64,000 nt of DNA. Origin: Halohasta litchfieldiae. GTDB lineage: Archaea > Halobacteriota > Halobacteria > Halobacteriales > Haloferacaceae. Of this stretch, positions 33,027-58,520 are shown one piece after another. The notes beneath the pieces were generated by a model. It made no database searches. It was not told the DNA's origin and saw only the letters and a program-made list of their open reading frames with translations. The position numbers and the translations under genes are program-made. Position 1 is the first letter of the stretch. The number at the start of each line of letters is the position of its first letter. The stretch spans positions 1,178,001-1,242,000 of the forward strand of contig NZ_CP024845.1 of the NCBI RefSeq assembly GCF_002788215.1. Reading direction: 5' to 3'.

Positions 33027-33028
33027 TG

Positions 33029-34117: not shown

Positions 34118-34129
34118 AAATTCGAACTA

Positions 34130-45019: not shown

Positions 45020-45153
45020 CACTCGCTGTCTTCCAACTGTGGCGCGATACAGTTGAGACCGGTGACCTTCGATTACTCCAACAGCCGAATCCGCCGTAGG
45101 AACTTCGGTCGGCATACGGAGCTCTCCGTGTTTGTGTTCGTTACGACTCCGCA

Positions 45154-45182
45154 TTTTATCGCCCCCTGAGGGGTGAGGGCGC
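45154..45182 (+). promoter_or_regulatory. Structured leader element, copy A
   Basis: T-rich ATTTTAT, then stem CGCCC (45160-45164)/GGGCG (45177-45181) around the loop CCTGAGGGGTGA. It lies 54 nt (T-tract to ATG) before the gene at 45208. Member of a seven-copy family with paired but different stems and a shared AGGGGTG-like loop. Confidence 0.75.
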
Positions 45183-45207
45183 ACAAAAGACGCCTTCTGT
45201 ACTACCT

Positions 45208-45642
45208 ATGTCGACTGAATACAACCCACAACAGTACCAACTGAATCCAAACCAGACCGACTATACGACCGATCCACCGTGGGCAGATCTCGAACTCACC
45301 GTGCCCAACGATCGGAGCCCGATCTCCATTGTTTCCTTCGTCGAGTGTGTCCTCGTCGAGCTCACCCACGAACCGGTGGCTGCCGAGTACGTTTCATCGG
45401 AGATCTGGGGCGAGAAGCGAACACGATTTTTCGCCGTCGACGATACGGGCGAGCGGTTCCAAAAGCAGTATTCTGATGACCGACTGGGCGAGCATAATAC
45501 GCTGCTCAGTCGTCGACGTGTTCGAAACGCGCTGATCAACCGACTGTCGCGTGAAACTGTGGGAACGAAGCGAGGTATCCAGGAGTCGGTCGAGGAGCCA
45601 GATACCTTCCGTGTGAGGCCGCTTCGGGAGTTGGAACTCTAA
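45208..45642 (+). CDS. Hypothetical protein, first of a three-gene unit
   Basis: 144 residues, acidic and Tyr/Gln-rich N-terminus (EYNPQQYQLNPNQTDYTTDP), then a compact domain (SPISIVSFVECVLVELTHEP and KRTRFFAVDDTGERFQKQYS) ending RVRPLRELEL. No family recognised. It carries the structured leader element and overlaps the next start (TAATG), so it heads a tight operon of three small plasmid-type genes. Confidence 0.72.
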   Translation: MSTEYNPQQYQLNPNQTDYTTDPPWADLELTVPNDRSPISIVSFVECVLVELTHEPVAAEYVSSEIWGEKRTRFFAVDDTGERFQKQYSDDRLGEHNTLLSRRRVRNALINRLSRETVGTKRGIQESVEEPDTFRVRPLRELEL

Positions 45643-45857
45643 TGTTCCGAGAATACGACCACGTTGAGGGCGGCACGCTGGTCTACGATGTTCGAACTGA
45701 ACACCGTGTTCACCTTACTCGTGAAGTCACGATCGGCCGCCAGCTGCTCGGCTTTACGAACGTCAGTGACTGGGACAAGATCCGCTCGGAACTCACCCGC
45801 CGCGGCCATGGTGTCGGCGCAATACACCAGCTTCCCGTCTTCAAGGGTGGTCTGTAA
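45642..45857 (+). CDS. Hypothetical small protein
   Basis: 71 residues, mostly beta strands by eye (GGTLVYDVRTEHRVHLTREV TI, then LLGFTNVSDWDKIRSELTRR). Start and stop both overlap neighbours through TAATG junctions, implying translational coupling with the genes at 45208 and 45857. Function unknown. Confidence 0.65.
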   Translation: MFREYDHVEGGTLVYDVRTEHRVHLTREVTIGRQLLGFTNVSDWDKIRSELTRRGHGVGAIHQLPVFKGGL

Positions 45858-46126
45858 TGGGGCCATTCGATCTCACTGACCGACGAGCGTGTGGTCACCC
45901 GAACGGTCACTGTCCCGAGTGCGGGCAACCGACGCCGTCACTGCGTGCCGAGTACTGCTCGATTGCCTGCCGATATGATTCCCAGGAGGCCCAGAGGTGG
46001 AAGCAGTATGAGCCCCCGAGCCGAGAGTCTACACGGCGGCCGACTGACGCAGAACTCGCCGAGCGAGAACCCGAGCGGCCAGCCCATCCAGAACAAGGAT
46101 ACCGTCGACGGGGACGCCGGGACTAG
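45857..46126 (+). CDS. Small zinc-finger protein
   Basis: 89 residues. The N-terminal Cys/His cluster CGHPNGHCPECGQPTPSLRA then EYCSIACRY gives two Cys pairs plus His typical of a zinc ribbon; the C-terminal half is Arg/Glu/Pro-rich and likely disordered. Last gene of the three-gene unit begun at 45208. Possibly a DNA- or RNA-binding adaptor. Confidence 0.7.
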   Translation: MGPFDLTDRRACGHPNGHCPECGQPTPSLRAEYCSIACRYDSQEAQRWKQYEPPSRESTRRPTDAELAEREPERPAHPEQGYRRRGRRD

Positions 46127-46367
46127 CGAAGAAATCCGTCGACGGAAGCCTCGGTCGCTGTGGTGATATTCTTGTGAGTATGCTTCTGCAAGACTTAGTC
46201 TCTAAGTATAGCAAAAGTGCATTGCTTGACTTCATGTAGAACGTTCTAATTGTGATATCCCAAGGCCCTGTACCTCTCATGAAGACACAATGAGGAGCCG
46301 TCGACATGAAAAGTCAATTGGATAGTATTTCTACGGGTTATATATAGGGTCAAAGTTAGGACATGAT
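46127..46367 (+). promoter_or_regulatory. Intergenic region with a TATA box for the 46368 gene
   Basis: TTATATATAGGG (46337-46348) lies about 25 bp upstream of the ATG, giving a nearly leaderless transcript. CTCAT...ATGAG short arms near 46276-46294 are of unknown meaning. No gene seen. Confidence 0.45.
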
Positions 46368-47162
46368 ATGGCTACGCTGAACTCCCTTCGGCCTGCGATT
46401 AGTGGTCTCATCCGTAATCCAATCCTCTTGGTTATCACAGGGTTATATACACTCTTACAAATTCCTCAACTGGTTCTTCAATCACAGTCTCCATTGATTT
46501 CTGCACTGGTTTCGTTACTGATGACTGGTGTCTTACTCGTCTTGCTTCCGTTCTACCAAGGTGGTCTCATTGGAATGGCTAATGAAGCACTGGCTGGCCA
46601 CACACAAATTAGGTCTTTCATTCAGGCAGGAAAATCAAATTATATTTCACTGTTATTATCATATCTCGTCATACTAGCAGTAAATATTCTGTTTGGAATT
46701 GCCGGATTTGTTTTATTCTTTGCTGGTGGTCTAGGCTTTGTTATTGGGAATGGACAGCCGAGTACTGCAGTAATAGCGATTATCGGTATTCTTGGGCTTC
46801 TCATTGTTGTCGCCTATCTTCTAATCGTCATTAGTATCCAGTTCTACGCCCATGCCATTGTTCTCAGTGATACCAAGATTATTGAGGGATTCAAGTATAG
46901 TGTCAAGCTTGTCCGTCAGAATCTCTTCAGTGTTGCTGGGTATTCTGTTATTATGTTCTTTGGAGGTGCTCTTATTGGCCTCCTAGGTGGGGTGTCGTCA
47001 ATCCTATTTTCACCACAACCCGCGTTAGGCACTGCTCTACCGGATATTTCGTTGCCACTGGTTATTCTTATATTAGCAATCTCTCTGATTTTGACTGCAA
47101 TTTTTGGTGCATTCTACGGTGTATACTCAGTTGCATTCTACCAAAAAATTAACCCAGATTAA
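46368..47162 (+). CDS. Polytopic membrane protein of unknown function
   Basis: 264 residues with about six hydrophobic segments (ILLVITGLYTLLQIPQLVLQ, LLMTGVLLVLLPFYQGGLIG, LVILAVNILFGIAGFVLFFA, IAIIGILGLLIVVAYLLIVI, VAGYSVIMFFGGALIGLLGG, LPLVILILAISLILTAIFGA). The layout, with an amphipathic GGLIGMANEALAGHTQIRSF loop, resembles haloarchaeal DUF7847-type membrane proteins. Codon usage is markedly AT-rich compared with its surroundings, suggesting separate acquisition. Strong TATA box upstream. Confidence 0.75.
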   Translation: MATLNSLRPAISGLIRNPILLVITGLYTLLQIPQLVLQSQSPLISALVSLLMTGVLLVLLPFYQGGLIGMANEALAGHTQIRSFIQAGKSNYISLLLSYLVILAVNILFGIAGFVLFFAGGLGFVIGNGQPSTAVIAIIGILGLLIVVAYLLIVISIQFYAHAIVLSDTKIIEGFKYSVKLVRQNLFSVAGYSVIMFFGGALIGLLGGVSSILFSPQPALGTALPDISLPLVILILAISLILTAIFGAFYGVYSVAFYQKINPD

Positions 47163-47246
47163 AACAGACACCAAATGAAACAACGTGATATGATGGATAG
47201 ATAACTACATCGAATCATTTTCCTTCTTATTGTCTTACAAACACAT

Positions 47247-48272
47247 ATGTCCCTACTACGGTCACATCCGTATGCCGCCACGCTCGTCCTTCTCGTCTTT
47301 GGAGTCGTACTTATCCTCTCGTTTGTCGCCCTCGGGGCGACGGTTTCGGACCCAACGTACTCGATGGAGCCGTTCGATCCAAACAATAACGTAGAGCCAC
47401 TTCGGTACACTCCTGAAGTTCGGCAGTTCAACGCCGATACGCAGCCAACAGCACATGCTGATGCAGTCAATACTGCAATCGAGACTGGTGGGTTCACAGG
47501 CCAACTTGACGGCGATCTCAGCCACATTGATGGAGAAGGATTCTCGTACCTCATCGTCGACCAGGCGGTCTATGAGTATCACTCCGAATCCACCGGCGAT
47601 GAAGTGACGATCACGATGAACCCTATCGATGCTGAAACTGTCGCACACGAAGTTGCAACACCGTACGAAGACGCCTCCACAACGACACGGGAGGCGATCG
47701 ACACCGGCGAACCCGTGACTGGTAAGATAGAATCAGGCTGGATTGTTATCGATGACGGCACCTACTACAGTGCCGAGTTTGTTGAATCAGGAGTGATTGT
47801 CAGCCAGTTCATTGTTAGACCAGTGGGAGCACTGTTGATCTCCGTCGGGGGTGCGTTTACCGCTGCTGGTCTCTGGTTGCTTCAGTCGTTTATTCGTGGA
47901 GAGACCCGCCCACTCAGCGAAAAGAGTGCGGCTGGTGTGGCGCTTGCATCAGGTGGGGTCACGCTAGGTGCAATAACACTGTTCCGATCCGGAACGAGCG
48001 TTCTGATAACCCCCAATAGCATCGTACTTGCCATCGCGACAGGAGTACTGCCACTGATTGGTGTTCTTCTGGCGCGTGAACGGTACCTCAGAATCGGAGT
48101 TATACTCGTCGCAATCCCTATTTTCCTTACACTCTGGACGATTCCGACATTTCTGACATCGGGTGTCAATTCTGGCATCTTATCAGCTGGATTTGCCTTG
48201 TTTGGGCTCTTACTCGTCGGTGTTATCGGATCACCACTCATCGTGTATGGTTATCGGTTTACACCTTCCTAA
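47247..48272 (+). CDS. Membrane protein with an extracytoplasmic domain
   Basis: 341 residues. One N-terminal membrane segment (ATLVLLVFGVVLILSFVALG), an acidic outside domain of about 150 residues, and five to six C-terminal hydrophobic segments from GALLISVGGAFTAAGLWLLQ to LFGLLLVGVIGSPLIVYGY. No family recognised. It follows the polytopic protein by 84 bp on the same strand; the two may form a unit. Confidence 0.72.
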   Translation: MSLLRSHPYAATLVLLVFGVVLILSFVALGATVSDPTYSMEPFDPNNNVEPLRYTPEVRQFNADTQPTAHADAVNTAIETGGFTGQLDGDLSHIDGEGFSYLIVDQAVYEYHSESTGDEVTITMNPIDAETVAHEVATPYEDASTTTREAIDTGEPVTGKIESGWIVIDDGTYYSAEFVESGVIVSQFIVRPVGALLISVGGAFTAAGLWLLQSFIRGETRPLSEKSAAGVALASGGVTLGAITLFRSGTSVLITPNSIVLAIATGVLPLIGVLLARERYLRIGVILVAIPIFLTLWTIPTFLTSGVNSGILSAGFALFGLLLVGVIGSPLIVYGYRFTPS

Positions 48273-49174
48273 GGTATCTTTTCGTGTTCCACTTTCAGGA
48301 TTAGCGATATCCGCACAGATGCGCATACGGTACAATTAATTTTCATATGTGTTGACTGCGCGATCTGAGCGCAACCTGATCCTCTGAACTACGATTATTC
48401 CAACTGTGACAGGTATGGCTTGTCGACATTCTTGCGGTACTCACCCAGTTCAGTCTCAACAATGTGTGCTACTCTTTGACTATGAGTTCAGCAACCAATC
48501 CTCGTTCCACAGAACTGTCATCTCTATCGCGGTTCTGTTCATGTTAATCGGCGGGAAACAGGACAGCCCGACTTCGCCGCTGGGTTCTCATTCAGACCGA
48601 GGAATATGACTTTCTAACTCTGCTCTCTGCTGTACAAGCGCTCGCAGTCTTGCATATCTGTTGTATTGATGATCTAACTGTCGACTGTTGAGACGAGTTG
48701 TATGGCTGGCCTTCTGGTGATCGTGGTCTGGTCTGTATTTGTTGACGGCCCGTCCCGCTCGCTGTCTACCGCCTTCAGCGACGCTCGCGACAGACCATTC
48801 CGGGCTGCGGCGAGCAAGCTCGCCGTTCCGGGCTAAAGTGAATGTGGCTTCGACGCCAGCGGGTATCTCTCGGGGGTTGCGCTGTGCCGTGCTCACCCCG
48901 CGAGACATACTCCGCTGGACGCTTGCTTCAGGCAGACACCGGGTCACTCACTGCGTTCGTGCCCCGAGCCTCACCTCGCTGCGCTCGCTGAGACTGCGCG
49001 CGGTCCTGGATTAGTTTCCTGCTTCGGACACGCTCTCACTCGCGCCCAGCGGCGCTCGTGAAGGCGCGAGCGAGAGCGTGTGATGGTTGAGTTGGTTAAT
49101 CGAGAGAGCCACGGCTGGAGAGTCGTGGTGTCGGAAAAAGACGCCGAGTGAGCGCCTTCGGAGCATATACTCCA
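48273..49174. other. 900-bp gene-free, GC-rich, hairpin-rich region
   Basis: From about 48750 to 49100 the sequence is rich in short CG-containing palindromes (for example GCGAGCAAGCTCGC near 48808, GCTCGC repeats and GCGCGAGCGAGAGCG near 49070). CCACG/CGTGG arms flank GCTGGAGAGT near 49112-49131, just before the OB-fold gene. Reading frames here are arginine-rich shadows. The pattern is typical of untranslated upstream DNA of haloarchaeal OB-fold protein genes and may form an mRNA leader. Confidence 0.45.
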
Positions 49175-50071
49175 ATGAGAAATAGGAATCTAATCAGTAA
49201 TGAAGTTTCGGTCGATGAACAGGCGTTCGAAAATGCAGATGAAGTGACGGTCGACGAGGATGGCTTCGAGGTCGTCGATGAGACTCCTGAGTTCCGGCCG
49301 TCGGTGCAGATGGAAATCCAGGCGAAAGTCGATTCAAACCACCCAGATGCGCGTCTCGAAGCAGGCCCGGATCACATATACGGAAAGACCCTCGTTCAGG
49401 AAGAGCGTATCCAGGGGCGGGAAGCGGAGTTAGCATCGATTAGTGCGAAGGCGGTATTCGGAAGTCAGGAGGGACGAGAAGAGCGGACCCGAGAGATCGT
49501 GGTCAAAGAGACGACGGCGCGGCGTGTGGAGTTCCTGAAGCGGGCGGGCTGTGTGAATCCGATGGTTCATCCAGATCGGGCAGATCCTCGTGAGATGCTT
49601 CCTCCTGAGCAGTTGGGGGCGGTGAACAGAGAGGCGATGCGGTTGGCCGAGAAATTGAATGGCTGGTCGACGGCGGCGATTGGTCGACAGTTGGGTGAAG
49701 CCGTAGTCGGCGGCTTGGATCTGACGAGTGCGGTGGTTGGAACGTTCGAGAAATTACAGACGGCCCCCGGAGCGGTGGTTCCAATCGGGAAGTTGGAGGC
49801 GATCAATCGAGAAGAGGTGAGCATTGCGGGTCGAGTAGTCCAATTGTGGGATTCATCGAGTCCAGCGATTGCCCAGGTGGGACTCATAGAGGATGAGAGC
49901 GGGCGAACAAAATTCACGAGCTGGGTGAAGTCGGATGCGAAGTGGGTCCAGGAAGGCGAGCAGGTGTGCATACACGGAGCGGCTAAGAGCTGGTACCAAG
50001 GGCGCGTGTCGGTGGCTGTGACGGGGTGGTCGACCATTCACACTCCTGAGCGCGGTCGGTGGTGGGAGTAG
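49175..50071 (+). CDS. OB-fold single-stranded DNA-binding (RPA-like) protein
   Basis: 298 residues from the ATG at 49175; the frame is open to 49148. The acidic N-terminus with an imperfect VTVDEDGFEVVDETPEF repeat, the helical middle (AVNREAMRLAEKLNGWSTAA) and the C-terminal OB fold (SIAGRVVQLWDSSSPAIAQV, GLIEDESGRTKFTSWVKSDA, GAAKSWYQGRVSVAVTGWST) match the accessory RPA-like proteins of haloarchaeal plasmids. Expected to coat single-stranded DNA during replication or transfer. No zinc finger is visible, in contrast with chromosomal RPA3-type proteins. Confidence 0.85.
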   Translation: MRNRNLISNEVSVDEQAFENADEVTVDEDGFEVVDETPEFRPSVQMEIQAKVDSNHPDARLEAGPDHIYGKTLVQEERIQGREAELASISAKAVFGSQEGREERTREIVVKETTARRVEFLKRAGCVNPMVHPDRADPREMLPPEQLGAVNREAMRLAEKLNGWSTAAIGRQLGEAVVGGLDLTSAVVGTFEKLQTAPGAVVPIGKLEAINREEVSIAGRVVQLWDSSSPAIAQVGLIEDESGRTKFTSWVKSDAKWVQEGEQVCIHGAAKSWYQGRVSVAVTGWSTIHTPERGRWWE

Positions 50072-50153
50072 CCGGTCGAGGCGGTCTTCTTTTTTTGCTC
50101 TATGCCGGAGCCGACCCAAACCCCACCTCCCCACCCACCGCTCCGTGCTCGCT

Positions 50154-50207
50154 CGGTGAGACTAACCCGTTCGTCTCACCGGTTCTCATTCGCAGGCTCA
50201 CGAGAAC
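50154..50207. other. Tandem hairpins after the OB-fold gene
   Basis: CGGTGAGAC/GTCTCACCG (50154-50181, 10-base loop) is directly followed by GTTCTC/GAGAAC (50182-50207). They may form a terminator between the convergent OB-fold and HEPN genes, or a recombination site. Confidence 0.45.
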
Positions 50208-50252
50208 GCCGCTGTGCGCGCAGCCACGACCTTGACAGCAACGTTAGGTGGG

Positions 50253-50279
50253 AGAGAGTACATTTCGTCTGCTTCAGAT
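50253..50279 (+). repeat. Direct repeat flanking the HEPN/MNT module, left copy
   Basis: AGAGAGTACATTTCGTCTG here is identical to 51675-51693, followed in both by CTTCAGAT or TTCAGAT and then a less similar GTAGACGA/GTCGACGA stretch. The two copies bracket the HEPN/MNT genes at a distance of 1.42 kb. Confidence 0.7.
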
Positions 50280-50355
50280 CATCAGGTGGTAGACGACTCT
50301 CAAAGGTTGGGTAGCGTTAATTCGACGTCGACACTAACGTATTCTGGGCTGGCTG

Positions 50356-50853
50356 TCAGTCGCCAGATTCGCAGATACATTCATGACCTTGTCGAGATCG
50401 GCCTACGATAAACTCGTGAATCTCGCTGGCAAGCTCATACATTGCCTCTGCACGGTCAGCTGCTGCAAGACCATCTTGATAGTACGTCTTCGCCCGGTGT
50501 TCTCGCCACAGGTCAGCTAAATCCTCGGCGACCGATTCAGCGAAAAGCCCGATAGCGGCCGCTTCTCGATACACTCTTGCATGTGTGCCAGGAAGGTCGT
50601 TTGGATCCATTGTTCCTCGTTCGAGCAAGCGAAACTCGACTGTCCGTTCGATTGCGACAAACGAGGCCTCAATCACGAGTGTGTAGTATTCTGCATCCCG
50701 AAGTGTGTCGGCACCGGCGAGCAGTCGACATCCCTTTCGCAACTGGAGGAGTGCAGCATCCTCGACATCAAGGCCTGGTTCGATTTGTGTCGGTCGTCGG
50801 TCGAATGCTGCTTGGACCTCGTTGACTAATTGGTCGATTCGGGTACTACTCAT
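50356..50853 (-). CDS. HEPN-domain toxin candidate
   Basis: 165 residues, all helical. Segments such as AEYYTLVIEASFVAIERTVE and GLFAESVAEDLADLWREHRA then KTYYQDGLAAADRAEAMYEL fit a HEPN domain; a WREHRAKTYY stretch occupies the place of the R-x(4-6)-H RNase motif, though the fit is imperfect. It overlaps the MNT gene by 8 bp, the usual HEPN/MNT arrangement. If active, it would cleave RNA unless blocked or modified by its partner. Confidence 0.78.
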   Translation of the reverse strand: MSSTRIDQLVNEVQAAFDRRPTQIEPGLDVEDAALLQLRKGCRLLAGADTLRDAEYYTLVIEASFVAIERTVEFRLLERGTMDPNDLPGTHARVYREAAAIGLFAESVAEDLADLWREHRAKTYYQDGLAAADRAEAMYELASEIHEFIVGRSRQGHECICESGD

Positions 50854-51526
50854 CGGCCATTACCTCTTTGCGGACTGATTGCAGTTTCCCGTCTTCATAT
50901 ACTGTACTTCCCTCCAAGAAGATCTCACGAAGCTTTGATCCCGCTCTTTGGGCACTGTCTGCGGATTCGACGTATGGCTCAAACTCAAATCGATCCCCAT
51001 CGAATCGCTGGTCTTGGAGGTCGGCGGTGACATCGGTTACGACCCTCCGAGCAGGTGTTCGATCTCCGTCGACTACAACGAAGAGGTCAATATCGCTTTG
51101 TCGATCAGCTTCAGCGCGAGCGACGCTTCCGAAGACGACAATTCCAAGAAGTGAGTCGACATCATCTGTGTCAATGATTGCTTCCTGGATCTGGTCGACG
51201 AACGCTCGGATCGGCTTGTGGAACTCCGATTGTTCGATGGCCAGTATAGGGTCGTCTTTTTCGAGATTATTTGTGTTGATCGACACGTAGTTTCGTTGTG
51301 GCGTCTCTCGAATGTGGACCGCATCAATACTATCGAGTAAGTCGACAGCCCTCCATACCGTTGAGCGAGCGACGTCCGTGGCGTCGACGAGTTCAGGAAT
51401 GGTGAACTCTGTCTCGTGAGCATCGGCTAGAAGGCGGAGGATATCATCTGCTGCCTCAATGCGAAACACCCCCGCATCGGTATTTGGATCTGGATCAATA
51501 CAGATCCGCATCTCTTGTTTCGTCAT
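50846..51526 (-). CDS. MNT-type nucleotidyltransferase antitoxin with wHTH
   Basis: 226 residues from MTKQEMRICIDPDP (51526); an ATG nine bases upstream is possible. The N-terminal wHTH (TEFTIPELVDATDVARSTVW) is followed by a minimal nucleotidyltransferase: IVVFGSVARAEADRQSDIDL (G-S-x10-D-x-D) with the third acidic residue in FEFEPYVES. MNT partners neutralise HEPN toxins, in known cases by AMP transfer to the toxin. The wHTH allows autoregulation, and a dyad is present in the promoter. Confidence 0.88.
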   Translation of the reverse strand: MTKQEMRICIDPDPNTDAGVFRIEAADDILRLLADAHETEFTIPELVDATDVARSTVWRAVDLLDSIDAVHIRETPQRNYVSINTNNLEKDDPILAIEQSEFHKPIRAFVDQIQEAIIDTDDVDSLLGIVVFGSVARAEADRQSDIDLFVVVDGDRTPARRVVTDVTADLQDQRFDGDRFEFEPYVESADSAQRAGSKLREIFLEGSTVYEDGKLQSVRKEVMADE

Positions 51527-51543
51527 GTCGGACACTGTCTTAT

Positions 51544-51567
51544 CTTGTGCAACAAGGTATATATAAA
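51544..51567 (-). promoter_or_regulatory. HEPN/MNT promoter and dyad
   Basis: Minus-strand TATA (TTTATATATA, 51558-51567) about 25-30 bp before the start, directly followed by CTTGT-TGC-ACAAG (51544-51556), a palindrome between TATA and start codon where a repressor would block transcription. Confidence 0.55.
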
Positions 51568-51674
51568 CAACGGCGTTTCAGCATGGACTGGTCGACGAGG
51601 GCCTTGTGATATACAACATATCAGCCAACGAAGAGCAGATCACACAGTTGCTATGCTTCAGGACTTCTTGAGAA

Positions 51675-51700
51675 AGAGAGTACATTTCGTCTGTTCAGAT
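51675..51700 (+). repeat. Direct repeat flanking the HEPN/MNT module, right copy
   Basis: Second copy of the AGAGAGTACATTTCGTCTG repeat seen at 50253. It lies upstream of the HEPN/MNT promoter and just before the second ORB cluster. Confidence 0.7.
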
Positions 51701-51733
51701 GAGGTACGTCGACGAACAATCTAATTGGAGACT

Positions 51734-51860
51734 ACACACCACTTTTGCAAGTGAATACACGATGGCCACCCTCAACCGTTGCAAGTGAATTATGGGTTCA
51801 ACACACCACTGTTACAAGTGAATCAAATAAATGAGAGACACACCACCGTTTCAAGTGAAT
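51734..51860 (-). other. Second ORB-like repeat cluster (four copies)
   Basis: Four direct repeats at 51734-51756, 51768-51790, 51801-51823 and 51838-51860, spaced 33-37 bp. Read on the minus strand the core is ATTCACTTG-x-AAC-x-GTGGTGTGT. This resembles haloarchaeal ORB sites but differs from the family near orc1 (TCACTTTGAACGAGGGG). A fifth related site, TTTCACTTGCGATGTGGGGTGTGT, lies at 53121-53144. They adjoin a fragment of an Orc1/Cdc6 gene. Confidence 0.7.
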
Positions 51861-51888
51861 ATATACGCGAGACTGCCCAAACAGCCAG

Positions 51889-52165
51889 CTAAGCTACATT
51901 GTTTATCGAAGCTATTTTTCGAATAATCTTGACCTCGCTATTCAGTGTCGACACGTCTGCCATAGCATCGACGGCACTCGAAAACGGGACGTCCAGTTCG
52001 TAACTGTAGTAGTTGCCCGGCGATCCGCTTCGGTTTTCGTTCGCTGAGAGAATTCCGAGCATCCGCAGATCAGACAGGTGATTATGAACAGATCGCTGGG
52101 ACAGTGAGTCGACGTCGGCACTCTCACCTGTGGCTTTATTGACAAAAACACGTCCTCTCCCGCTA
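51889..52165 (-). pseudogene. Orc1/Cdc6 C-terminal fragment
   Basis: Minus-strand frame reading NKATGESADVDSLSQRSVHN, HLSDLRMLGILSANENRSGS, PGNYYSYELDVPFSSAVDAM, ending IRKIASINNVA and TAG at 51889-51891. LSQRSVHNHLSDLRMLGI and the YYSYELDV strand are the winged helix of Orc1/Cdc6 proteins. No AAA+ domain or start codon precedes it; a stop occurs in frame near 52165. It differs from the intact Orc1 at 27179 and must come from another initiator. With the ORB cluster it marks a decayed origin. Confidence 0.75.
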
Positions 52166-52246
52166 TCACAGCACTACGCTCTATCGCAGTAGAATCTCAC
52201 GAACACTGTGGTAATCTCTAACACAGTCGATATCGAATCAACCGCT

Positions 52247-53080
52247 ATGCCACGGAACGTATTGGTACCCACAGACGGCTCTCCACTCTCGATAGACGCA
52301 CTCGAACATGCTCTCGACACTTTCCCTGACGGGAACCTCACACTTCTGCACGTCATCGATCCTCGATACACCACGCCGGATGACGATGAGTTGAGGCCTG
52401 AACGGATATTTACCGATCTGCTTGATCTCGCCGAGGCCCACAATATCGAAGTCGACACCGAGATTCGCGTTGGCCACCCCGCCCGTGAGATTGTGACCTT
52501 CAGCGAGGAAACAGACGTCGACGAAATCATGATGGGAAGCCATGGCCGGGAGCGGGCATCACGAATCCTGTTTGGGAGCATCGCTGAGCGCGTCCTGCGA
52601 CGAGCCCCCGTCCCTGTCACGGTTGTCCGCTCCCACCAACGGATGGGCACAAAGCATCATCTCGTCCCGATCGACGGCTCGGAACAGTCGACAAAAGCAC
52701 TCGAATACGCCTTTTCGGTCTTCCCAGACATCGAAACAACCGTCCTCCATGCTATCGATCCGATGGAAACACACTACGGCGAGGGGCAATTGGTTCACTC
52801 CGAAGTGGAGTACGAACAAATACAGGAGGAAGCAGAGGAATTGCTGGCAGACGCAGAAGACCTAGCTCAAGAGTACGATGCCAACGTCACGACGACGACA
52901 GCTGTCGAATGGAGACCGAATCTGCCAGCGGATGCGATTCTCAACTACATCGACGACAACAACGTCGACCATGTGATCATGGGAAGCCACGGTCGCTCCG
53001 GCGCATCGAGGCTTCTCCTCGGCAGTGTTGCAGAAACCGTTGGGAGACGGTCGCCTGCACCTGTAACAATCGTCCGGTGA
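52247..53080 (+). CDS. Universal stress protein, tandem Usp domains
   Basis: 277 residues from ATG 52247 (MPRNVLVPTDGSPLSIDALE); the frame extends to 52208 without support. Two Usp domains, each with the nucleotide-binding signature: MMGSHGRERASRILFGSIAE (residues ~95-115) and VIMGSHGRSGASRLLLGSVA (~245-265), plus the final PVTVVR/PVTIVR strands. Unlike the Usp at 21689, both ATP loops are intact. A role in stress survival; situated within the decayed origin, between ORB-like sites. Confidence 0.9.
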   Translation: MPRNVLVPTDGSPLSIDALEHALDTFPDGNLTLLHVIDPRYTTPDDDELRPERIFTDLLDLAEAHNIEVDTEIRVGHPAREIVTFSEETDVDEIMMGSHGRERASRILFGSIAERVLRRAPVPVTVVRSHQRMGTKHHLVPIDGSEQSTKALEYAFSVFPDIETTVLHAIDPMETHYGEGQLVHSEVEYEQIQEEAEELLADAEDLAQEYDANVTTTTAVEWRPNLPADAILNYIDDNNVDHVIMGSHGRSGASRLLLGSVAETVGRRSPAPVTIVR

Positions 53081-53188
53081 CAATTAATCGTCCGGTGATA
53101 ATTCTATCAATTCCCAGGAGTTTCACTTGCGATGTGGGGTGTGTAAACGTCAATTACTGAACACGTCAGAAAACAATCGCCAGAGAAA

Positions 53189-53217
53189 TTTTTTCGTGCC
53201 CCAAGGGGTGTGGCACT
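53189..53217 (+). promoter_or_regulatory. Structured leader element, copy B
   Basis: T-tract ATTTTTTC, then stem GTGCC (53196-53200)/GGCAC (53212-53216) around CCAAGGGGTGT. T-tract to ATG is 52 nt. CCCC-AA-GGGG could form a competing hairpin. Confidence 0.8.
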
Positions 53218-53240
53218 CATCATGAGTGTCCCATCCCACA

Positions 53241-53666
53241 ATGACTCAATCACTACTTGAGAGACTCAGTCCGACGAATCGTGTTCTGAAACGAGCCCAG
53301 TACGAAGCCTTCGCGTTCTCGCTGTACGACGGTGATGTCCTCGTTCGAAATGAGAGCCATCTCCAACCTGGCGATCACGAATACCGTGTCACCATCGTCG
53401 ACGGGATACCAGAGAGCTGTGAGTGTCCTGCAGACAAGCGGTTTGAAGGCCCGTGCAAGCACCGAACAGCAATCGCGATCCGACCAACTATCCTGGATGT
53501 GGCTACCCAGATGCAGATGGTCGCAGACGGTGGGGTGACCACCGAGAAGGCACCAATAGACCCAGAAGACGACACTGAACTCCAGGAGTGCGACTGCCAG
53601 TATCTAAACGACGATTTTCCGTGCTGGGAGTGTGTGAAAACCGGTCGACGCGAACTTCCTGAGTAG
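53241..53666 (+). CDS. SWIM zinc-finger protein
   Basis: 141 residues from the ATG at 53241; a GTG 15 bases earlier is less likely. SWIM motif C-x-C-x(n)-C-x-H: SCECPADKRFEGPCKHRTAI near residue 57-76, preceded by the typical strands (EYRVTIVDGIPES). A second Cys-rich stretch (CDCQYLNDDFPCWECVK) near the end may bind another zinc. SWIM proteins bind DNA or protein partners and are common in haloarchaeal plasmids. Its leader has element copy B; the next gene's element C follows 13 bp after its stop. Confidence 0.85.
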   Translation: MTQSLLERLSPTNRVLKRAQYEAFAFSLYDGDVLVRNESHLQPGDHEYRVTIVDGIPESCECPADKRFEGPCKHRTAIAIRPTILDVATQMQMVADGGVTTEKAPIDPEDDTELQECDCQYLNDDFPCWECVKTGRRELPE

Positions 53667-53679
53667 ACCGCCCCGCGTA

Positions 53680-53709
53680 TTTTTTCACCCCCTGAGGTGT
53701 GCGGGGTGT
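53680..53709 (+). promoter_or_regulatory. Structured leader element, copy C
   Basis: T-tract ATTTTTTC, stem CACCCC (53686-53691)/GGGGTG (53703-53708), loop CTGAGGTGTGC. T-tract to the TFB ATG is 55 nt. Confidence 0.8.
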
Positions 53710-53734
53710 GCAGAAAGCACTTCGCGTGTTTAGG

Positions 53735-54664
53735 ATGGCTACCAGAGAAATCTACGGACAAACGTTCGATGAGGATGTATCGAGTGATCAATCTGCTACC
53801 TGTGTTGAATGCGGTGGTCAGATACGCACAAACAGCATTGAAACGGCCTGCGAGGACTGTGGTCTCATTATCGATGACCAGCGGATCGACCAAGGCCCAG
53901 ACTGGCGGAGCTACAAAGAGAAGACAGACTCACAAAGTCGAGTGGGGCCACCACGTACGGTGGCGCGTCACGATAACGGCTTGTCGACTGAGATTGGCCG
54001 ATGGCGAGATGGAAACGGCAACCAACTCGCTGGATCGAAGCGCAGTCGACTGTCCAGGATGCGCCGGGAGCACAGCCGTGGCCGATTCGGGTCGAAATCA
54101 GAACGGAACCTTGCACACGGGCTCGGTGAGGTCCGTCGAATCACGAGTGTCCTTGATCTCGCTGAGTCGATCCGTAACCAAGCCTGTCAGCTCTTCCGAA
54201 GTGCTCAAAACGAGGATCTCCTCCGTGGCCGTTCAATCGAGGCGATAGCCGCAGGAAGTGTGTATAGTGCTTGCCGGTGCAACGGGCTCGGACGAACAAT
54301 CGACGAGATCGCGGCGTTGGCCCGAGTGAATCAGCAGCGAGTGATGAACGCGTACAAAGTACTGAACCAGGAACTCGGACTGCCCACCCAACCCATTCGG
54401 CCAAGTGGGTTCGTCCCACGGCTTGCATCCGAACTCGGCGTTTCGGATCAGGTTCGACATCGAGCCCAGCGGTTGGCAGAACACTCGGAGACAGTCGACA
54501 AGACTGTGGGTGTCCGTCCTTCTGGGTTCGCAGCAGCGTGTCTCTACTGTGCTAGTCAGGAATACGGACATCCGCTCACACAACGGTCAGCCGCCGATGC
54601 TGCAAATGTGACGCCAACAACTGTCCGAGCACATCGAGATACGATTGAAGGACTGCCTCTCTGA
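53735..54664 (+). CDS. Transcription initiation factor TFB, accessory copy
   Basis: 309 residues from the ATG at 53735. Zinc ribbon CVECGGQIRT...CEDCGLII (residues ~22-45), the B-finger/linker region GPDWRSYKEKTDSQSRVGPP, and two cyclin-like repeats: SVYSACRCNGLGRTIDEIAA in the first and RPSGFAAACLYCASQEYGHP, LTQRSAADAANVTPTTVRAH in the second. It should bind BRE-TATA with TBP. Together with the TBP gene at 58717 the element carries its own basal factors, which could direct transcription to its promoters. Confidence 0.93.
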   Translation: MATREIYGQTFDEDVSSDQSATCVECGGQIRTNSIETACEDCGLIIDDQRIDQGPDWRSYKEKTDSQSRVGPPRTVARHDNGLSTEIGRWRDGNGNQLAGSKRSRLSRMRREHSRGRFGSKSERNLAHGLGEVRRITSVLDLAESIRNQACQLFRSAQNEDLLRGRSIEAIAAGSVYSACRCNGLGRTIDEIAALARVNQQRVMNAYKVLNQELGLPTQPIRPSGFVPRLASELGVSDQVRHRAQRLAEHSETVDKTVGVRPSGFAAACLYCASQEYGHPLTQRSAADAANVTPTTVRAHRDTIEGLPL

Positions 54665-54781
54665 ACAAGTTTCTGAGAATGCGTAAATGATTCACTTCTA
54701 TGCGATGTATTCGGCGACAATGAATGAGGTTTGAGTCTCAAGTATATACGCGAAGACGGACCAACCACTGTCAGACTACGT

Positions 54782-55255
54782 ATGAAGGATCATCAATCTG
54801 ATTTTGAGGAGCTCCGACCGCTTGGCGAATCGACGTCGACTCCTGATGCTGAACTGGCAGAGCGTGTCGACAATGAGGTCGACGATTCTACTACCGAATA
54901 CCCTCCAGGATACCCAGACGAGATCGCTCCAACCGAGTGTGAATGTGCTTCTTGTGGAACCTCGACCCCCGCTACGCAAACGAAGTGCGAATTCTGTCTC
55001 ACCTATCACCTCGATGGATCTGATGACGAGCAGAACCGCTCAACAGAAGAGTCGACACTCCTCCACGTGGTCCATCTGCTCGTCGAGGCCTCAACGTTCT
55101 ATGCTGCGGTGGCAAAGGGATCTGCAGCAGCAACGCTGCTTTCCAAGCCTGACAAAGACCCCGCAGTCGACGATTGCGAAATGATCTACGATCTCGATGA
55201 AGCACCTGCGGTACAGATAGCTGACCGCTGGCCCTCACTTCCCGAGGCAGTATGA
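54782..55255 (+). CDS. Zinc-finger-containing hypothetical protein
   Basis: 157 residues from ATG 54782; a TTG at 54731 would extend it through the probable TATA (AGTATATACGC) and is rejected. A Cys4 motif CECASCGTSTPATQTKCEFC sits near residue 60-80 between acidic linkers, followed by a helical C-terminal part (LLHVVHLLVEASTFYAAVAK). No structured leader element is seen here. No family recognised. Confidence 0.65.
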   Translation: MKDHQSDFEELRPLGESTSTPDAELAERVDNEVDDSTTEYPPGYPDEIAPTECECASCGTSTPATQTKCEFCLTYHLDGSDDEQNRSTEESTLLHVVHLLVEASTFYAAVAKGSAAATLLSKPDKDPAVDDCEMIYDLDEAPAVQIADRWPSLPEAV

Positions 55256-55306
55256 ATCACGTCTAAACAGGGCCAACAGTTGCTCGCTGCTGCTCGTGAT
55301 CGGACC

Positions 55307-55660
55307 ATGTGGACAAATGAACCACAGTCGCCTCGTGAGGACCGACATGGGACGTTTCTGTACGATGAGGCTGGATATGCGATCACCGAGACAAGCCAGC
55401 TCACGAGTAAGCTAGAGGATCCAGACGATCTTTGGTTAGTCCCCGCAATTGCCCTTCAGGACTCTGTCGACGACACTCACGCAGAGAGCCACCAACCGAG
55501 TGTCCCAACGAAACACCGTATGGAGTGCTGGGAGTGTGATCGAGTGACTGAACACCTCTTCAACGAGATCGAGTCCCTACCCTCTGAGGACTGGAGTGGC
55601 CAACCGATCTGGGAGTGTCGAGTATGTGGTAAACCTCGCTACGGACCACAGCCAGAATAG
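55307..55660 (+). CDS. Zinc-finger-containing hypothetical protein
   Basis: 117 residues from ATG 55307. The N-terminal part (REDRHGTFLYDEAGYAITET) is followed by a Cys pair CWECDRVTEHLFNEI and a second pair WECRVCGKPRYGP, a split zinc ribbon resembling those that bind nucleic acid. It lies 51 bp after the preceding gene on the same strand and is followed by a TTAACCTACAA repeat. Function unknown. Confidence 0.65.
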   Translation: MWTNEPQSPREDRHGTFLYDEAGYAITETSQLTSKLEDPDDLWLVPAIALQDSVDDTHAESHQPSVPTKHRMECWECDRVTEHLFNEIESLPSEDWSGQPIWECRVCGKPRYGPQPE

Positions 55661-55680
55661 AACACTCGACTGGCCCAATC

Positions 55681-55721
55681 TTAACCTACAATAGCCGTCT
55701 CTTCTCAACGTTGTTGGTTAA
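55681..55721. repeat. TTAACCAACAA-family inverted repeat, copy 5
   Basis: TTAACCTACAA (55681-55691) faces TTGTTGGTTAA (55711-55721), 30 bp start to start. It lies 45 bp upstream of leader element D. Confidence 0.8.
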
Positions 55722-55765
55722 GATAGTAGAACAACCACTGAGAGACTTACCGAGCCGCCTGCGAG

Positions 55766-55793
55766 TTTTATTACCCTCTGAGGGGTGCGAGGC
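55766..55793 (+). promoter_or_regulatory. Structured leader element, copy D
   Basis: GTTTTATTA, then stem CCTC (55775-55778)/GAGG (55789-55792) around TGAGGGGTGC. The weakest stem of the family, with the standard loop. T-tract to ATG is 54 nt. Confidence 0.65.
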
Positions 55794-55819
55794 CGATCAG
55801 AGAGCCTTGTATAAATTGT

Positions 55820-56098
55820 ATGTCCAACTCGCAACACTCGGAAACTGATTCCACAAAATCGTCGACGACCCAATCCCAGCCAGACCAAATAGAGCACGTC
55901 GAGCGGAGCGACGTCGGTGTCTCACTCACTGTGCAACTCACTCGTGGGACGGGGACACGGGATCAAGACAAAATAACAGCGAAGGTGAAAGCGAAAACCT
56001 TGGAGGAGGCTCGAACCGACATGGAGACTCTTCGAGCATATATTGACGACCTTGCTGAGTCGACACGCCAGATCCAACCAGCAGAGGTACCCAAGTAG
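55820..56098 (+). CDS. Small hypothetical protein
   Basis: 92 residues. Disordered Ser/Thr/Gln-rich N-terminus, then a compact domain: SDVGVSLTVQLTRGTGTRDQ, a KITAKVKAKTLEEARTDMET strand-helix and LRAYIDDLAESTRQIQ. Beta-beta-helix pattern common in small haloarchaeal plasmid proteins (DUF7389-like, uncertain). Leader element D precedes it and element E follows after 13 bp. Confidence 0.7.
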   Translation: MSNSQHSETDSTKSSTTQSQPDQIEHVERSDVGVSLTVQLTRGTGTRDQDKITAKVKAKTLEEARTDMETLRAYIDDLAESTRQIQPAEVPK

Positions 56099-56111
56099 CG
56101 AGTCGACCTGA

Positions 56112-56145
56112 TTTTTTCATCGCCTCACCAAGGGTAGAGGCGATT
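56112..56145 (+). promoter_or_regulatory. Structured leader element, copy E
   Basis: T-tract ATTTTTTC, then a perfect 8-bp stem ATCGCCTC (56119-56126)/GAGGCGAT (56137-56144) around ACCAAGGGTA. The stem ends only 4 nt before the TTG start of the next gene, closer than in other copies, so it could also hide the start site. Confidence 0.82.
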
Positions 56146-56148
56146 TAA

Positions 56149-56370
56149 TTGAGTAATTCAGCAGATCAGTCCACAGAATCGAGTGGCCTCACCCCACAAC
56201 AGCGTCTCGAATCGTCGAACACTCGGCTCGTCGACGCAGGCATTGCGACGATCAAGGATATGGAGACGCTGCGGGCGTGTGTCGCCTATGAAAATGCGAA
56301 CCAACGCCGGGTTCTGATTCTCCATCGTCTCAAGCGACGAGCTGACGAGATCCGGGCCGAAGTCGAATAG
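56149..56370 (+). CDS. Small helical hypothetical protein (TTG start)
   Basis: 73 residues beginning at TTG (MSNSADQSTESSG when read as Met). A helical region LTPQQRLESSNTRLVDAGIA, TIKDMETLRACVAYENANQR and a basic RRVLILHRLKRRADEIRAEV helix. No ATG or GTG is available in frame upstream of the helical part; the TTG follows the element-E hairpin by 4 nt. Function unknown. Confidence 0.65.
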   Translation: MSNSADQSTESSGLTPQQRLESSNTRLVDAGIATIKDMETLRACVAYENANQRRVLILHRLKRRADEIRAEVE

Positions 56371-56407
56371 AAGAGCACTCACTGACTCATTCTGGGCCCA
56401 CGCGATG

Positions 56408-56448
56408 TTAACCAACACTCAGCCGTAACGACGAATTTTGTTGGTTAA
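56408..56448. repeat. TTAACCAACA inverted repeat, copy 6
   Basis: TTAACCAACA (56408-56417) faces TGTTGGTTAA (56439-56448). It ends 18 bp before the T-tract of leader element F, as copy 5 precedes element D. Confidence 0.82.
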
Positions 56449-56465
56449 GACTGCTACTGATAACG

Positions 56466-56497
56466 ATTTTTTTCTCCCCGAGAGGTGTGCGGGGAGC
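56466..56497 (+). promoter_or_regulatory. Structured leader element, copy F
   Basis: T-tract ATTTTTTT, stem CTCCCC (56474-56479)/GGGGAG (56491-56496), loop GAGAGGTGTGC. T-tract to ATG is 53 nt. Confidence 0.82.
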
Positions 56498-56518
56498 GAG
56501 TTCTCGCAATGATTCAAA

Positions 56519-57520
56519 ATGGCATTATCAGCACGTTCGACCAGTAGCAAAGCCAGCGAGATTGTAGCAGCTCGAGAGACCGACTACGTCGCATTTCTCC
56601 ACCGCGTTCCCTTCGCGTTAGATGCCTTCAACCTCGGTTTTCTCACCGGCTTTCGAGAAGACTGTACTTACCAGCAAAACCAATACACGGATTTGGAGTT
56701 GCCAGTTGGAATGCTTGACAACGACTTCCGGAATCCCGATCTCACTCGATACGTGGAGCGGTTTTTTCGGTACGAACCACAGGTCGGCGTGATCGGTGAT
56801 GCCTACAGCGTCGACGAGGTCGAGGAATACGTAGCTGCTGCTCGCGATATCCAAGCAAGCTATCCAGAATCAGAGTTGGTGATCGTCCCGAAGTGCCGTG
56901 CAGCCATTCATGCAGTACCAGAGGACCTCATCGTGGGATACTCACGGGGATACGCTGACAAGCTAGCTCACGAGTTTTCGGAGCCGACTGATTGGCGTGG
57001 TCGACGTGTCCATATTCTCGGAGGGAGTCCATTGAAACAACTCAAGGTGATCCAGCAGCTCACCTGTCCAACGCTGACGGGTGATCCTCCTGCAGATATT
57101 GTCGGCCTTGACTGGAATGGCTTGCATCGAGGGGCTCAATTTGGTGAATTCTGGACCGATCGTGGCTGGGACGACAGTGGTCGTGATTCCGATCACGTGA
57201 CGGTTCGGAAGATCGTACGCTATAGCCTCGGGCAGGTTCGAGAGTTCTGGCAAGCACACGGCGTCTGGCCCGAGTCGACCCTCCAGGATGTCGGTGTCGA
57301 GTACGCGTATCGTGGGCCCTCACCGAGCGATATAGAGAGCCCAGCGTGTTCTGAGTGCAGTATGAACGTTTGGTCGACCGAACGTGGACCCTATGTGGCT
57401 GAGTACGATACCGGAGACCTCTGTGGGTACTGCAGCTACGACTGTTACTTTACACACCGACATCGGAACCAGCTCGAAGAGCTAGCTGGCGAACAGAGCG
57501 TCTACTTCCCACCAGCCTAA
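56519..57520 (+). CDS. TGT-superfamily-like protein (DUF6610/DpdA-like) with zinc site
   Basis: 333 residues. An N-terminal region with VAFLHRVPFALDAFNLGFLT, then a TIM-barrel-like stretch: VGVIGDAYSVDEVEEYVAAA, ELVIVPKCRAAIHAVPEDLI, VGYSRGYADKLAHEF, WRGRRVHILGGSPLKQLKVI and ADIVGLDWNGLHRGAQFGEF. The GR-VH-x-LGG-SP-xxQ and D-x-N segments recall tRNA-guanine transglycosylases and their DNA-acting DpdA relatives. The C-terminus has CSECSMN and CGYCSYDCYF, a zinc site. It might exchange guanine in the element's DNA; no preQ0 genes are in the window. Closest named family is DUF6610, from memory. Confidence 0.6.
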   Translation: MALSARSTSSKASEIVAARETDYVAFLHRVPFALDAFNLGFLTGFREDCTYQQNQYTDLELPVGMLDNDFRNPDLTRYVERFFRYEPQVGVIGDAYSVDEVEEYVAAARDIQASYPESELVIVPKCRAAIHAVPEDLIVGYSRGYADKLAHEFSEPTDWRGRRVHILGGSPLKQLKVIQQLTCPTLTGDPPADIVGLDWNGLHRGAQFGEFWTDRGWDDSGRDSDHVTVRKIVRYSLGQVREFWQAHGVWPESTLQDVGVEYAYRGPSPSDIESPACSECSMNVWSTERGPYVAEYDTGDLCGYCSYDCYFTHRHRNQLEELAGEQSVYFPPA

Positions 57521-57527
57521 CCGCAGT

Positions 57528-57558
57528 ATTTTTTCGCGCCCCAAGGGGTGCGGCGCGT
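57528..57558 (+). promoter_or_regulatory. Structured leader element, copy G
   Basis: T-tract ATTTTTTC, 6-bp stem CGCGCC (57535-57540)/GGCGCG (57552-57557), loop CCAAGGGGTGC. It begins 8 bp after the previous stop. T-tract to ATG is 63 nt. CCCC-AA-GGGG is again a competing hairpin. Confidence 0.82.
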
Positions 57559-57590
57559 TCTGAAGAAGCAGAACTCGTCGTGTGAAAATC

Positions 57591-58520
57591 ATGGCTACAA
57601 CGAGTGAGACATCGGTTTCCTTCGAGGAGAGCGATACCCGACACGATGAGATGCACAGTACGATCGAACAATGGGTTGATGAGCTCGTCGACCACGTCGA
57701 TGATGCACAGGAAAGCAAAGAGTTTCAGGAGTGGCTCGATGTCCAGAGTCGCTTCCATGACTACTCGCATCGAAATACCCTGCTCATCAAGCTCCAGTGT
57801 CCCGAGGCAACAAGGGTTGCAGGCTACCATACCTGGCGAACCGACTTCGACCGGCATGTCCAGAAGGGCGAGCAGGCAATCTGGATCTGGGCTCCGATCA
57901 TCGCCAAGCGCTGTCCCAAGTGCAAGAATGCACCCAGCTATCACGACCAAGTCGACTGTGAGTACGACGAGACACCTCCAAGAGAGTGGTCGAAAGGGCT
58001 AGTGGGGTTCAGACCTACAACCGTCTTCGATGTCTCTCAGACGGAGGGTGAGCTCCTTCCCGAGTTGGAGACTGCGGCCACTGGGAGTGCTGGTGATCTC
58101 GTGGTGAAGCTCACGGGGGTGGCTGAAGACCTCGGTGTGACCGTTCGCATTGTTGAGGGAGAGGAGTGGGAGTACGGAGAGGCGATGGGTGTCTGCAAGT
58201 ACCGATGTATCCATTCGTTTCACCCCGTTATTGAAGCAAAAGCTCGTGCGAATCAGGCCGATCTCGCCGTGACGTTGATTCATGAGTATGCCCATGCACT
58301 GTTGCACTTCGGTGTCGACAGTGAACCCGAGCGGGCAAAACGTGAGGTCGAAGCCGAGGCCGTTGCGTACATCGTCGGTCGATTTTTTGACTTGGATACG
58401 AGTGGGTCTGCGTTCTACTTAGCGGCGTGGGAAAACGAGGATTCGGAGGTGATCCAGGACCGTCTCGGTCGGATTAGTTCGACTGCTCAGAAGATCATCG
58501 AGGCAGTTTCAAAAATATAG
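57591..58520 (+). CDS. ArdC-like antirestriction protein with metallopeptidase domain
   Basis: 309 residues from ATG 57591 (GTG 9 bases upstream possible). The N-terminal ArdC-like single-stranded-DNA-binding domain (YSHRNTLLIKLQCPEATRVA, GYHTWRTDFDRHVQKGEQAI, WIWAPI) has a Cys-rich insert (CPKCKNAPSYHDQVDCEY). The C-terminal M78/ImmA-type zinc peptidase has TLIHEYAHALLHF near residue 231 and a third-ligand Glu in VEAEAVAYIVG. ArdC proteins on bacterial conjugative plasmids protect incoming DNA from restriction. Its presence supports conjugative entry for this element. Confidence 0.85.
   Translation: MATTSETSVSFEESDTRHDEMHSTIEQWVDELVDHVDDAQESKEFQEWLDVQSRFHDYSHRNTLLIKLQCPEATRVAGYHTWRTDFDRHVQKGEQAIWIWAPIIAKRCPKCKNAPSYHDQVDCEYDETPPREWSKGLVGFRPTTVFDVSQTEGELLPELETAATGSAGDLVVKLTGVAEDLGVTVRIVEGEEWEYGEAMGVCKYRCIHSFHPVIEAKARANQADLAVTLIHEYAHALLHFGVDSEPERAKREVEAEAVAYIVGRFFDLDTSGSAFYLAAWENEDSEVIQDRLGRISSTAQKIIEAVSKI

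Follow-up and report, generated by a model that had tools for sequence, protein, structure and literature searches.

A widespread family of covarying hairpins preceding genes of putative conjugative elements in haloarchaea

Seven short sequences in the chromosome of Halohasta litchfieldiae, each made of a T-tract and a hairpin and each placed 5' of a gene, raise the question of the form in which such an element acts: as transcribed RNA, as double-stranded DNA, or as the single-stranded DNA (ssDNA) of an element entering a recipient. All seven lie within C1:1178001-1242000 of the 3.33-Mb single-contig assembly (the window, 64,000 nucleotides in all) and were described in an earlier note, made from the letters alone, as structured leaders, an interpretation that the present comparison supports in part. 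Compared across genomes, the hairpins prove to be a family of structured cis-elements that is widespread on haloarchaeal conjugative elements and undescribed in the sources searched. Our preferred reading, on which we are nearly evenly divided, is that each copy would be a promoter module of such an element, acting mainly on the entering ssDNA.

The hairpin family and its covarying stems

A scan of the window for a T-run followed by a Watson-Crick stem of at least 4 base pairs (bp) and an AGG core returned seven copies, all on the forward strand and none on the reverse, and the same pattern occurred 0.07 times per 64 kb in 30 first-order Markov sequences. The pattern was fitted to the seven copies, and the independent evidence comes from covariance models. 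The first, R1, was built from copies B, C, F and G and recovered copy A and, weakly, copies D and E, none of the three having been used for building. The second, R2, was built from 17 copies of the same genome and served for all later searches, its E-values being rough. The positions in the earlier note proved right to within 1 nucleotide (nt), the T-tracts of F and G starting at 56467 and 57529, and all seven stems are as it gave them. The copies, the open reading frames (ORFs) that they adjoin and the two best characterized products are as follows.

45154..45181, + strand: copy A, T-tract and hairpin with stem CGCCC/GGGCG and loop CCTGAGGGGTGA (R1 E 6e-4, R2 E 1e-5); adjoins the 5' side of ORF 45208-45642
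53189..53216, + strand: copy B, stem GTGCC/GGCAC, loop CCAAGGGGTGT (found by R1 and R2); adjoins the 5' side of a SWIM zinc-finger gene, 53226 (or 53241)-53666
53680..53708, + strand: copy C, stem CACCCC/GGGGTG, loop CTGAGGTGTGC (found by R1 and R2); 5' of the TFB gene
53735..54664, + strand: element-encoded transcription factor B (TFB; Pfam TFIIB and Zn_Ribbon_TF), of the lineage of hairpin runs
55766..55792, + strand: copy D, stem CCTC/GAGG, the weakest of the seven, loop TGAGGGGTGC (R1 E 0.61, R2 E 0.03); adjoins the 5' side of a DUF7389 gene, 55820-56098
56112..56144, + strand: copy E, stem ATCGCCTC/GAGGCGAT, loop ACCAAGGGTA (R1 E 0.88, R2 E 0.42; fold z-score -6.6); adjoins the 5' side of a TTG-start ORF, 56149-56370
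56467..56496, + strand: copy F, stem CTCCCC/GGGGAG, loop GAGAGGTGTGC (found by R1 and R2); adjoins the 5' side of a DUF6610 gene, 56519-57520
57529..57557, + strand: copy G, stem CGCGCC/GGCGCG, loop CCAAGGGGTGC (found by R1 and R2); 5' of the ArdC gene
57591..58520, + strand: ArdC-like protein (start ATG 57591; Pfam ArdcN domain; weak M78 peptidase match below the cut-off)

The family is widespread in Halobacteriales and extends well beyond these seven copies. Elsewhere in this genome R1 found a second run (G000:C1:1912311-1949991, reverse strand), which holds 18 matches at E <= 1, and scattered copies elsewhere on the chromosome (1397961, 1168068 and 527737) precede ArdC or copy-A-type genes. 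With R2, matches were obtained in 20 of 40 relatives (E <= 0.1) and, under stricter filters, in 126 of 242 genomes of the class (E <= 0.001); among 294 genomes drawn from the phylum, 32 had matches at E <= 0.001, of which 30 belong to the window's own order and the other two hold a single match each (2e-4 and 3e-4). The six elements that were mapped carry runs of 7-18 copies spanning ~14-49 kb, pHLAC01 of Halorubrum lacusprofundi has the same hairpins together with a TFB protein 99% identical to that of the window, and copies resembling copy E are present at L064, L065 and L029. Other carriers include Natrinema sp. J7-2 (pJ7-1), Haloferax mediterranei (pHME132) and Halobacterium salinarum R1 (PHS2). 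The statement that no named class fits has held: an Rfam search of window positions 44900-58000 with E up to 5 gave nothing at the copies and one chance match elsewhere in that 13-kb stretch, and no description of such a hairpin family was found in the titles and abstract openings of open-licence papers.

Evidence for a conserved structure comes from two alignments, both fitted to the model and hence biased towards structure: A6 (150 matches, 135 of them distinct), which includes rows that built the model, and A7 (147 matches from 23 loci), which holds no model-building row and some near-copies of A6 rows. Pairing is seen in 86.6% of the cells of A6, with changes on both sides at all six pairs, and 124 of its cells are changed on both sides, compared with 52+-6 after shuffling and at most 39 for structures slid along the alignment. 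The corresponding values in A7 are 87.2% and 103 cells, compared with 42+-6 and at most 35, and its covariation score is 0.394 against 0.123+-0.013. Stems re-derived from the sequence average 5.75 bp, versus 4.34+-0.10 once arms are exchanged among the copies. Relative to the commonest pair within each gene family, 60 compensatory changes were counted among distinct stems, alongside 86 changes by which Watson-Crick pairing is lost (13 G-U, 19 A-C, 26 other one-sided and 28 double). The earlier note had proposed that the copies form one family with covarying stems and a near-constant loop, under selection as a folded single strand rather than as a plain operator, and that a covariance model be built from them and haloarchaeal genomes searched with it; the compensatory pairing in new homologues and the covariation in A6 and A7 bear this out. 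Folding of single DNA sequences is weak for most window copies (z-scores of -0.3 to -6.6), so that covariation carries the argument for structure; with DNA parameters the outer stem alone is obtained for B and G, and a competing inner stem folds better in A and D.

Anatomy, promoter signals and downstream genes

A copy consists of 5-6 T-rich bases, mostly 0-5 more bases, a 5' stem arm of 4-9 bp, the loop and the 3' arm, the loop core being close to RAGGGGTGC, with variants ATGGGTGC and AGGGGCGGA. For 247 of 297 copies, the T-tract starts 28.6+-1.8 nt before the end of the stem, a distance near the interval between a TATA box and the transcription start. The T-tract is nearly devoid of A, with an A/(A+T) of 0.045 over the 297 copies versus 0.45 for AT-rich hexamers taken from 45 ordinary promoters; since R2 itself demands T, this value is partly a product of selection by the model and, with that caveat, the tract lacks the mixed A/T composition of the TATA box in ordinary haloarchaeal promoters. 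From position -160 on, the T-tract is the sole AT peak in 150 copies (0.92, versus 0.36-0.48), the composition upstream being flat, with nothing AT-rich within 160 nt of the tract; in a set of 59 ordinary genes from these replicons, a modest peak of 0.56-0.64 occurs between -36 and -27 relative to the ATG.

An ORF of at least 50 amino acids starts within ~100 nt of the hairpin in 145 of 150 copies, in agreement with the earlier placement of the elements 5' of mobile-element genes. Over 284 copies with such an ORF, the start codon (picked mechanically) lies at least 1 nt after the hairpin, at a median of 27 nt and in 90% of cases within 52; the near-constant spacing from T-tract to start codon that had been claimed thus stands in the window and is lost in the larger set. 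Single-linkage clustering of the genes gives 19 families with at least two members in the first set and 19 with at least three in the joined set, the largest probably merged. Pfam names ArdC, SWIM, TFB, DUF6735, DUF6610 and DUF7389 among them, and the others that were scanned gave no match. ArdC was searched for in 18 of the 20 hairpin-positive genomes and matched in 17. There are 28 matches that reach 61% identity and start no later than residue 9, and 27 of them lie directly behind a listed hairpin, the exception being G019:C1:2713867.

The position of the hairpins agrees with that of an RNA element, in which transcripts would begin upstream and the T-tract and hairpin would act in cis as a regulatory 5' leader (a riboswitch-like element, a protein-binding site or a processing site). 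A covarying stem and a near-constant loop 5' of ORFs are shared with the cis-regulatory RNAs of Rfam, and Shine-Dalgarno-like GAGGTGA motifs, recognized by eye, precede some start codons, so that some mRNA leaders exist. The absence of any promoter signal upstream, to -160, speaks against such a leader, as do the lack of an Rfam match, the ~19 gene families without a common ligand theme, and the 28 hairpins of 284 that are separated from the start codon by no more than 8 nt; furthermore, oligo-T is an archaeal terminator. G-U pairs are not favoured in the stem as RNA would allow, and at stem positions 2-6 they are depleted, with 6 in 724 cells compared with 22.8 expected from column composition. 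The rival CCCC-AA-GGGG hairpin that the earlier note had seen in copies B and G, as a switch would need, would require a 2-nt loop and is not favoured, DNA folding giving the outer stem. Taken together, these results make an RNA leader or switch improbable. The best reading of composition and spacing is that the hairpin would not be a transcribed leader at all, the T-tract being the only promoter-like signal and the hairpin filling the space up to the likely start. An argument that it is the template strand that folds, drawn from the excess of A-C over G-U (26 to 6), was dropped, as a control for composition gave it no support.

Terminators of the upstream gene, or some other by-product of intergenic sequence, would account for a T-tract behind a same-strand neighbour, an arrangement seen in 70 of 85 copies, some with the neighbour merely 2-30 nt away. 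The upstream neighbour is on the opposite strand in the other 15, the hairpin comes after the T-tract rather than before it, and homologous genes keep their hairpin, as the ArdC matches do; an origin of this kind is hardly to be entertained.

Strand, transfer genes and the TFB of the element

The earlier note contained nothing on the neighbouring transfer module, the restriction to one strand, the TFB lineage or the distribution across the order. All 297 copies agree in strand within the stretch from which they were fetched (49 stretches), and the 85 hairpins of the six mapped elements occupy one strand per element. Among the genes of these six runs, which were called by script, a hairpin precedes 76 of 184 on the same strand and none of 41 on the opposite strand (p 6e-9). 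The run of the window follows a block of transfer genes on the same strand:

33026..41793, + strand: transfer module ahead of the run, with TrbL_3/VirB6, an unassigned ORF, a VirB4-type ORF and a HerA/TraD-like ATPase

Neither the pattern scan nor R1 found a hairpin inside this module. Three plasmid contigs that were read whole repeat the arrangement, with a homologous transfer block free of hairpins, the run after the block, and the rest without a match at E <= 3. A VirB4 match was obtained in 16 of 20 hairpin-positive relatives versus 5 of 20 hairpin-negative ones (p 0.001), and in listings examined by eye VirB4 is on the strand of the hairpins on at least 13 contigs (G000, G005, G009:C12, G010, G013:C2, G016, G019:C2, G022, G023:C5, G026, G028:C9, G034 and G039:C7).

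The run also encodes its own TFB. The 23 best TFB rows (at least 286 bits) are all on contigs with listed hairpins except G017:C88, and two more TFBs behind a hairpin (G013:C1 and G028:C1) score lower, among other TFBs. Of the 26 run TFBs in a 41-row tree, 21 group in a single clade (99/91) with five outside it, and the hairpin-run label needs two changes versus 12.4 in shuffles. A hairpin precedes 27 of 28 run-type TFB genes at E <= 0.12 and the last at 0.69, these loci having been chosen because they hold hairpins. Judged by the tree, a TFB lineage goes with the element, with five of 26 outside the main clade, and it may recognize the module. Expression of the Halobacterium plasmid TFB genes is given, in the available part of PMC2121645, as fold changes only. 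Some element TFB genes contain stop codons and have kept the hairpin (G003:C9:16200-16856 and G019:C1:2744933-2745853).

The main rival explanation is a class of double-stranded promoters, in which the element TFB, perhaps with a plasmid TATA-binding protein (TBP), would read the T-tract and core in the duplex without any transfer of ssDNA, the inverted repeat being extruded or melted during opening. The early promoters of phage N4, whose inverted repeat is extruded or melted on opening, are a parallel. The TFB lineage of the runs and the hairpins before its genes are consistent with this explanation, as are the T-tract near the TATA position and a TBP gene at window 58717-59277. Haloarchaeal promoters with a TATA box and B recognition element, served by several TBP-TFB pairs, likewise have an AT-rich element ~28 nt before the likely start and a particular TFB; the present elements differ in having almost no A in the T-tract and a hairpin between the tract and the likely start. 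By itself, a duplex promoter leaves unexplained the covarying stems, the use of one strand and the transfer genes without hairpins, and we regard it as rather unlikely.

Sites for priming on a single strand, or origin-like sites (of the ssi/sso type), read by a primase of the element and standing 5' of genes for another reason, would also account for one-strand runs. Primase-type genes do occur in the elements: next to its run, pJ7-1 encodes a DNA primase and a primase-associated product, and the NCBIfam family of the latter is also present in G016:C2. Frpo of bacteria reportedly both transcribes and primes (Masai and Arai 1997). Set against the coupling to gene starts in ~19 families, this explanation appears very unlikely.

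The preferred reading, promoters that act on ssDNA, draws on the Frpo/ssi promoters of F-like plasmids, which are likewise hairpin-forming, confined to one strand, beside transfer genes, before antirestriction-type genes and several per element, and have -35/-10 boxes in folded DNA, as described in the available part of PMC11541004; the likeness is one of description. Conserved secondary structure of a single strand is evident here from covariation in two sets, with a modest fold of single DNA copies, and the hairpins stand on one strand beside VirB4/TrbL/TraD-like genes. They are unlike Frpo in their short variable stem, near-constant G-rich loop, separate T-tract and TBP/TFB host; the archaeal polymerase works with TBP and TFB, and beside the stem only the T-tract is seen. 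The early promoters of phage N4 also combine a short stem and a constant loop with a start site beside the stem, and they differ in being read by a phage-encoded polymerase. On the bacterial side, part of PMC11541004 reports leading-region anti-defence families found only on the transferred strand, some of them driven by Frpo, and part of PMC7213743 reports that ArdC of R388 is required in the recipient and binds or prefers ssDNA. Primase and primase-associated genes in sister plasmids also count in favour of this reading. Judged by their leading-region-like genes, their use of one strand and their surroundings, the hairpins look like an archaeal counterpart of Frpo. Comparison establishes the family, its covarying stems, the use of one strand within runs, the set of genes, the TFB lineage and the proximity to transfer genes; promoter activity, start site, action on ssDNA, the strand that folds and recognition by the TFB are inferences.

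On this model, the element would enter the recipient as ssDNA and its template strand would fold. The T-tract would occupy the position of the TATA box and the hairpin the next 23-25 nt, offering the host RNA polymerase a recognizable duplex next to an A-tract, and transcription would start at the hairpin's foot or immediately beyond it. The module would serve one strand of the region beside the transfer genes, with its recipient-type genes (ArdC, SWIM proteins and the element's own TFB), and these establishment genes would be expressed ahead of second-strand synthesis, as Frpo does in F-like plasmids; the element TFB, itself behind a hairpin, may reinforce their expression. The wider proposal, that haloarchaeal conjugative elements transfer ssDNA and that their establishment regions, with ArdC, TFB, SWIM and many small proteins of unknown function, are switched on from folded ssDNA hairpin promoters, widespread in Halobacteriales, with the element TFB as initiation factor, is a possibility that we put forward with considerable reserve.

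Several observations weigh against the preferred reading. Regarding structure, further pair types were not above shuffles (66/500 in A6 and 303/500 in A7), A-C pairs at stem positions 2-6 are depleted as well (26 versus 45.9 expected), and G-U is at chance in the outermost pair (25 versus 23.6); in a comparison of a structure with a fixed operator, the spacings from T-tract to stem and from T-tract to core were equally variable. Whole large replicons can have matches on both strands (G039:C7 and G040:C2), and the strand exclusivity may be partly confounded, the opposite-strand genes being later cargo. Four of 20 hairpin genomes have no VirB4 match, five genomes have VirB4 but no hairpins, and VirB4 lies opposite the hairpin strand on four contigs (G013:C1, G017:C103, G018:C1 and G019:C1). 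No relaxase domain was found in the selection of ORFs scanned with Pfam or NCBIfam, a search for an origin of transfer (oriT) identified only an ambiguous non-coding block, and the TFB fits a double-stranded promoter equally well. For archaea in general, ssDNA transfer is not shown and relaxases are not recognized according to the available parts of PMC9905601 and PMC3158045; the former adds that known archaeal conjugative plasmids encode no recognizable relaxase and that ssDNA as the transferred form was inferred from the width of the pilus channel.

The non-coding block, ~130 bp long and 77-92% identical between plasmids, lies at 48746-48865 in the window, at 30396-30531 and 36642-36762 in G016:C2, twice each in G034:C3 and G023:C5, and once in G019:C2; in three plasmids it is duplicated around a variable region. 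It could be an oriT, and an origin or a recombination site fits equally well. Of 249 plasmid records in PLSDB that match TFB, 248 are labelled non-mobilizable by its typing, the match having been taken at E <= 1e-30 and thus including many chromosomal-type TFBs; we take the label as a failure of bacterial typing where VirB4/TrbL/TraD-like genes exist.

If ssDNA hairpin promoters are confirmed, their one-strand arrangement would be independent evidence for entry as ssDNA and would reveal the entering strand, and the plasmid-borne TFB lineage would gain a possible role. The hairpins mark a gene set, mostly of unknown function, that probably includes proteins with which archaeal plasmids counter defences and establish themselves, and the covariance model lets such elements be found.

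Neighbouring features

Two further products are encoded in the window on the strand of the hairpins:

42097..43416, + strand: ORF with an NrS-1 polymerase-like HBD domain, between the transfer module and the first hairpin
49148..50071, + strand: protein whose C-terminal region is OB-fold-like (2kbn, E 3.5e-9; the archaeal single-stranded DNA-binding protein 1o7i is a weak match, E 0.05)

The R1 search of the window found no hairpin before the gene at 49148-50071. PHS2 and pJ7-1 have annotated DNA-binding protein genes ahead of TFB in a position similar to that of this gene. The TBP gene of the window is on the reverse strand, just past the ArdC end of the run, and is likewise annotated in pHLAC01. 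Positions 54731-55252 (forward strand) match the NCBIfam model MBSP1, "biosurfactant protein 1", with 215.7 bits, below the cut-off of 320. Finally, inverted repeats of the form TTAACC.ACA...TGTTGGTTAA were recognized by eye in intergenic sequence near the hairpins, at ~55683-55732 and 56408-56449 of the window, and also in L022 and L029.

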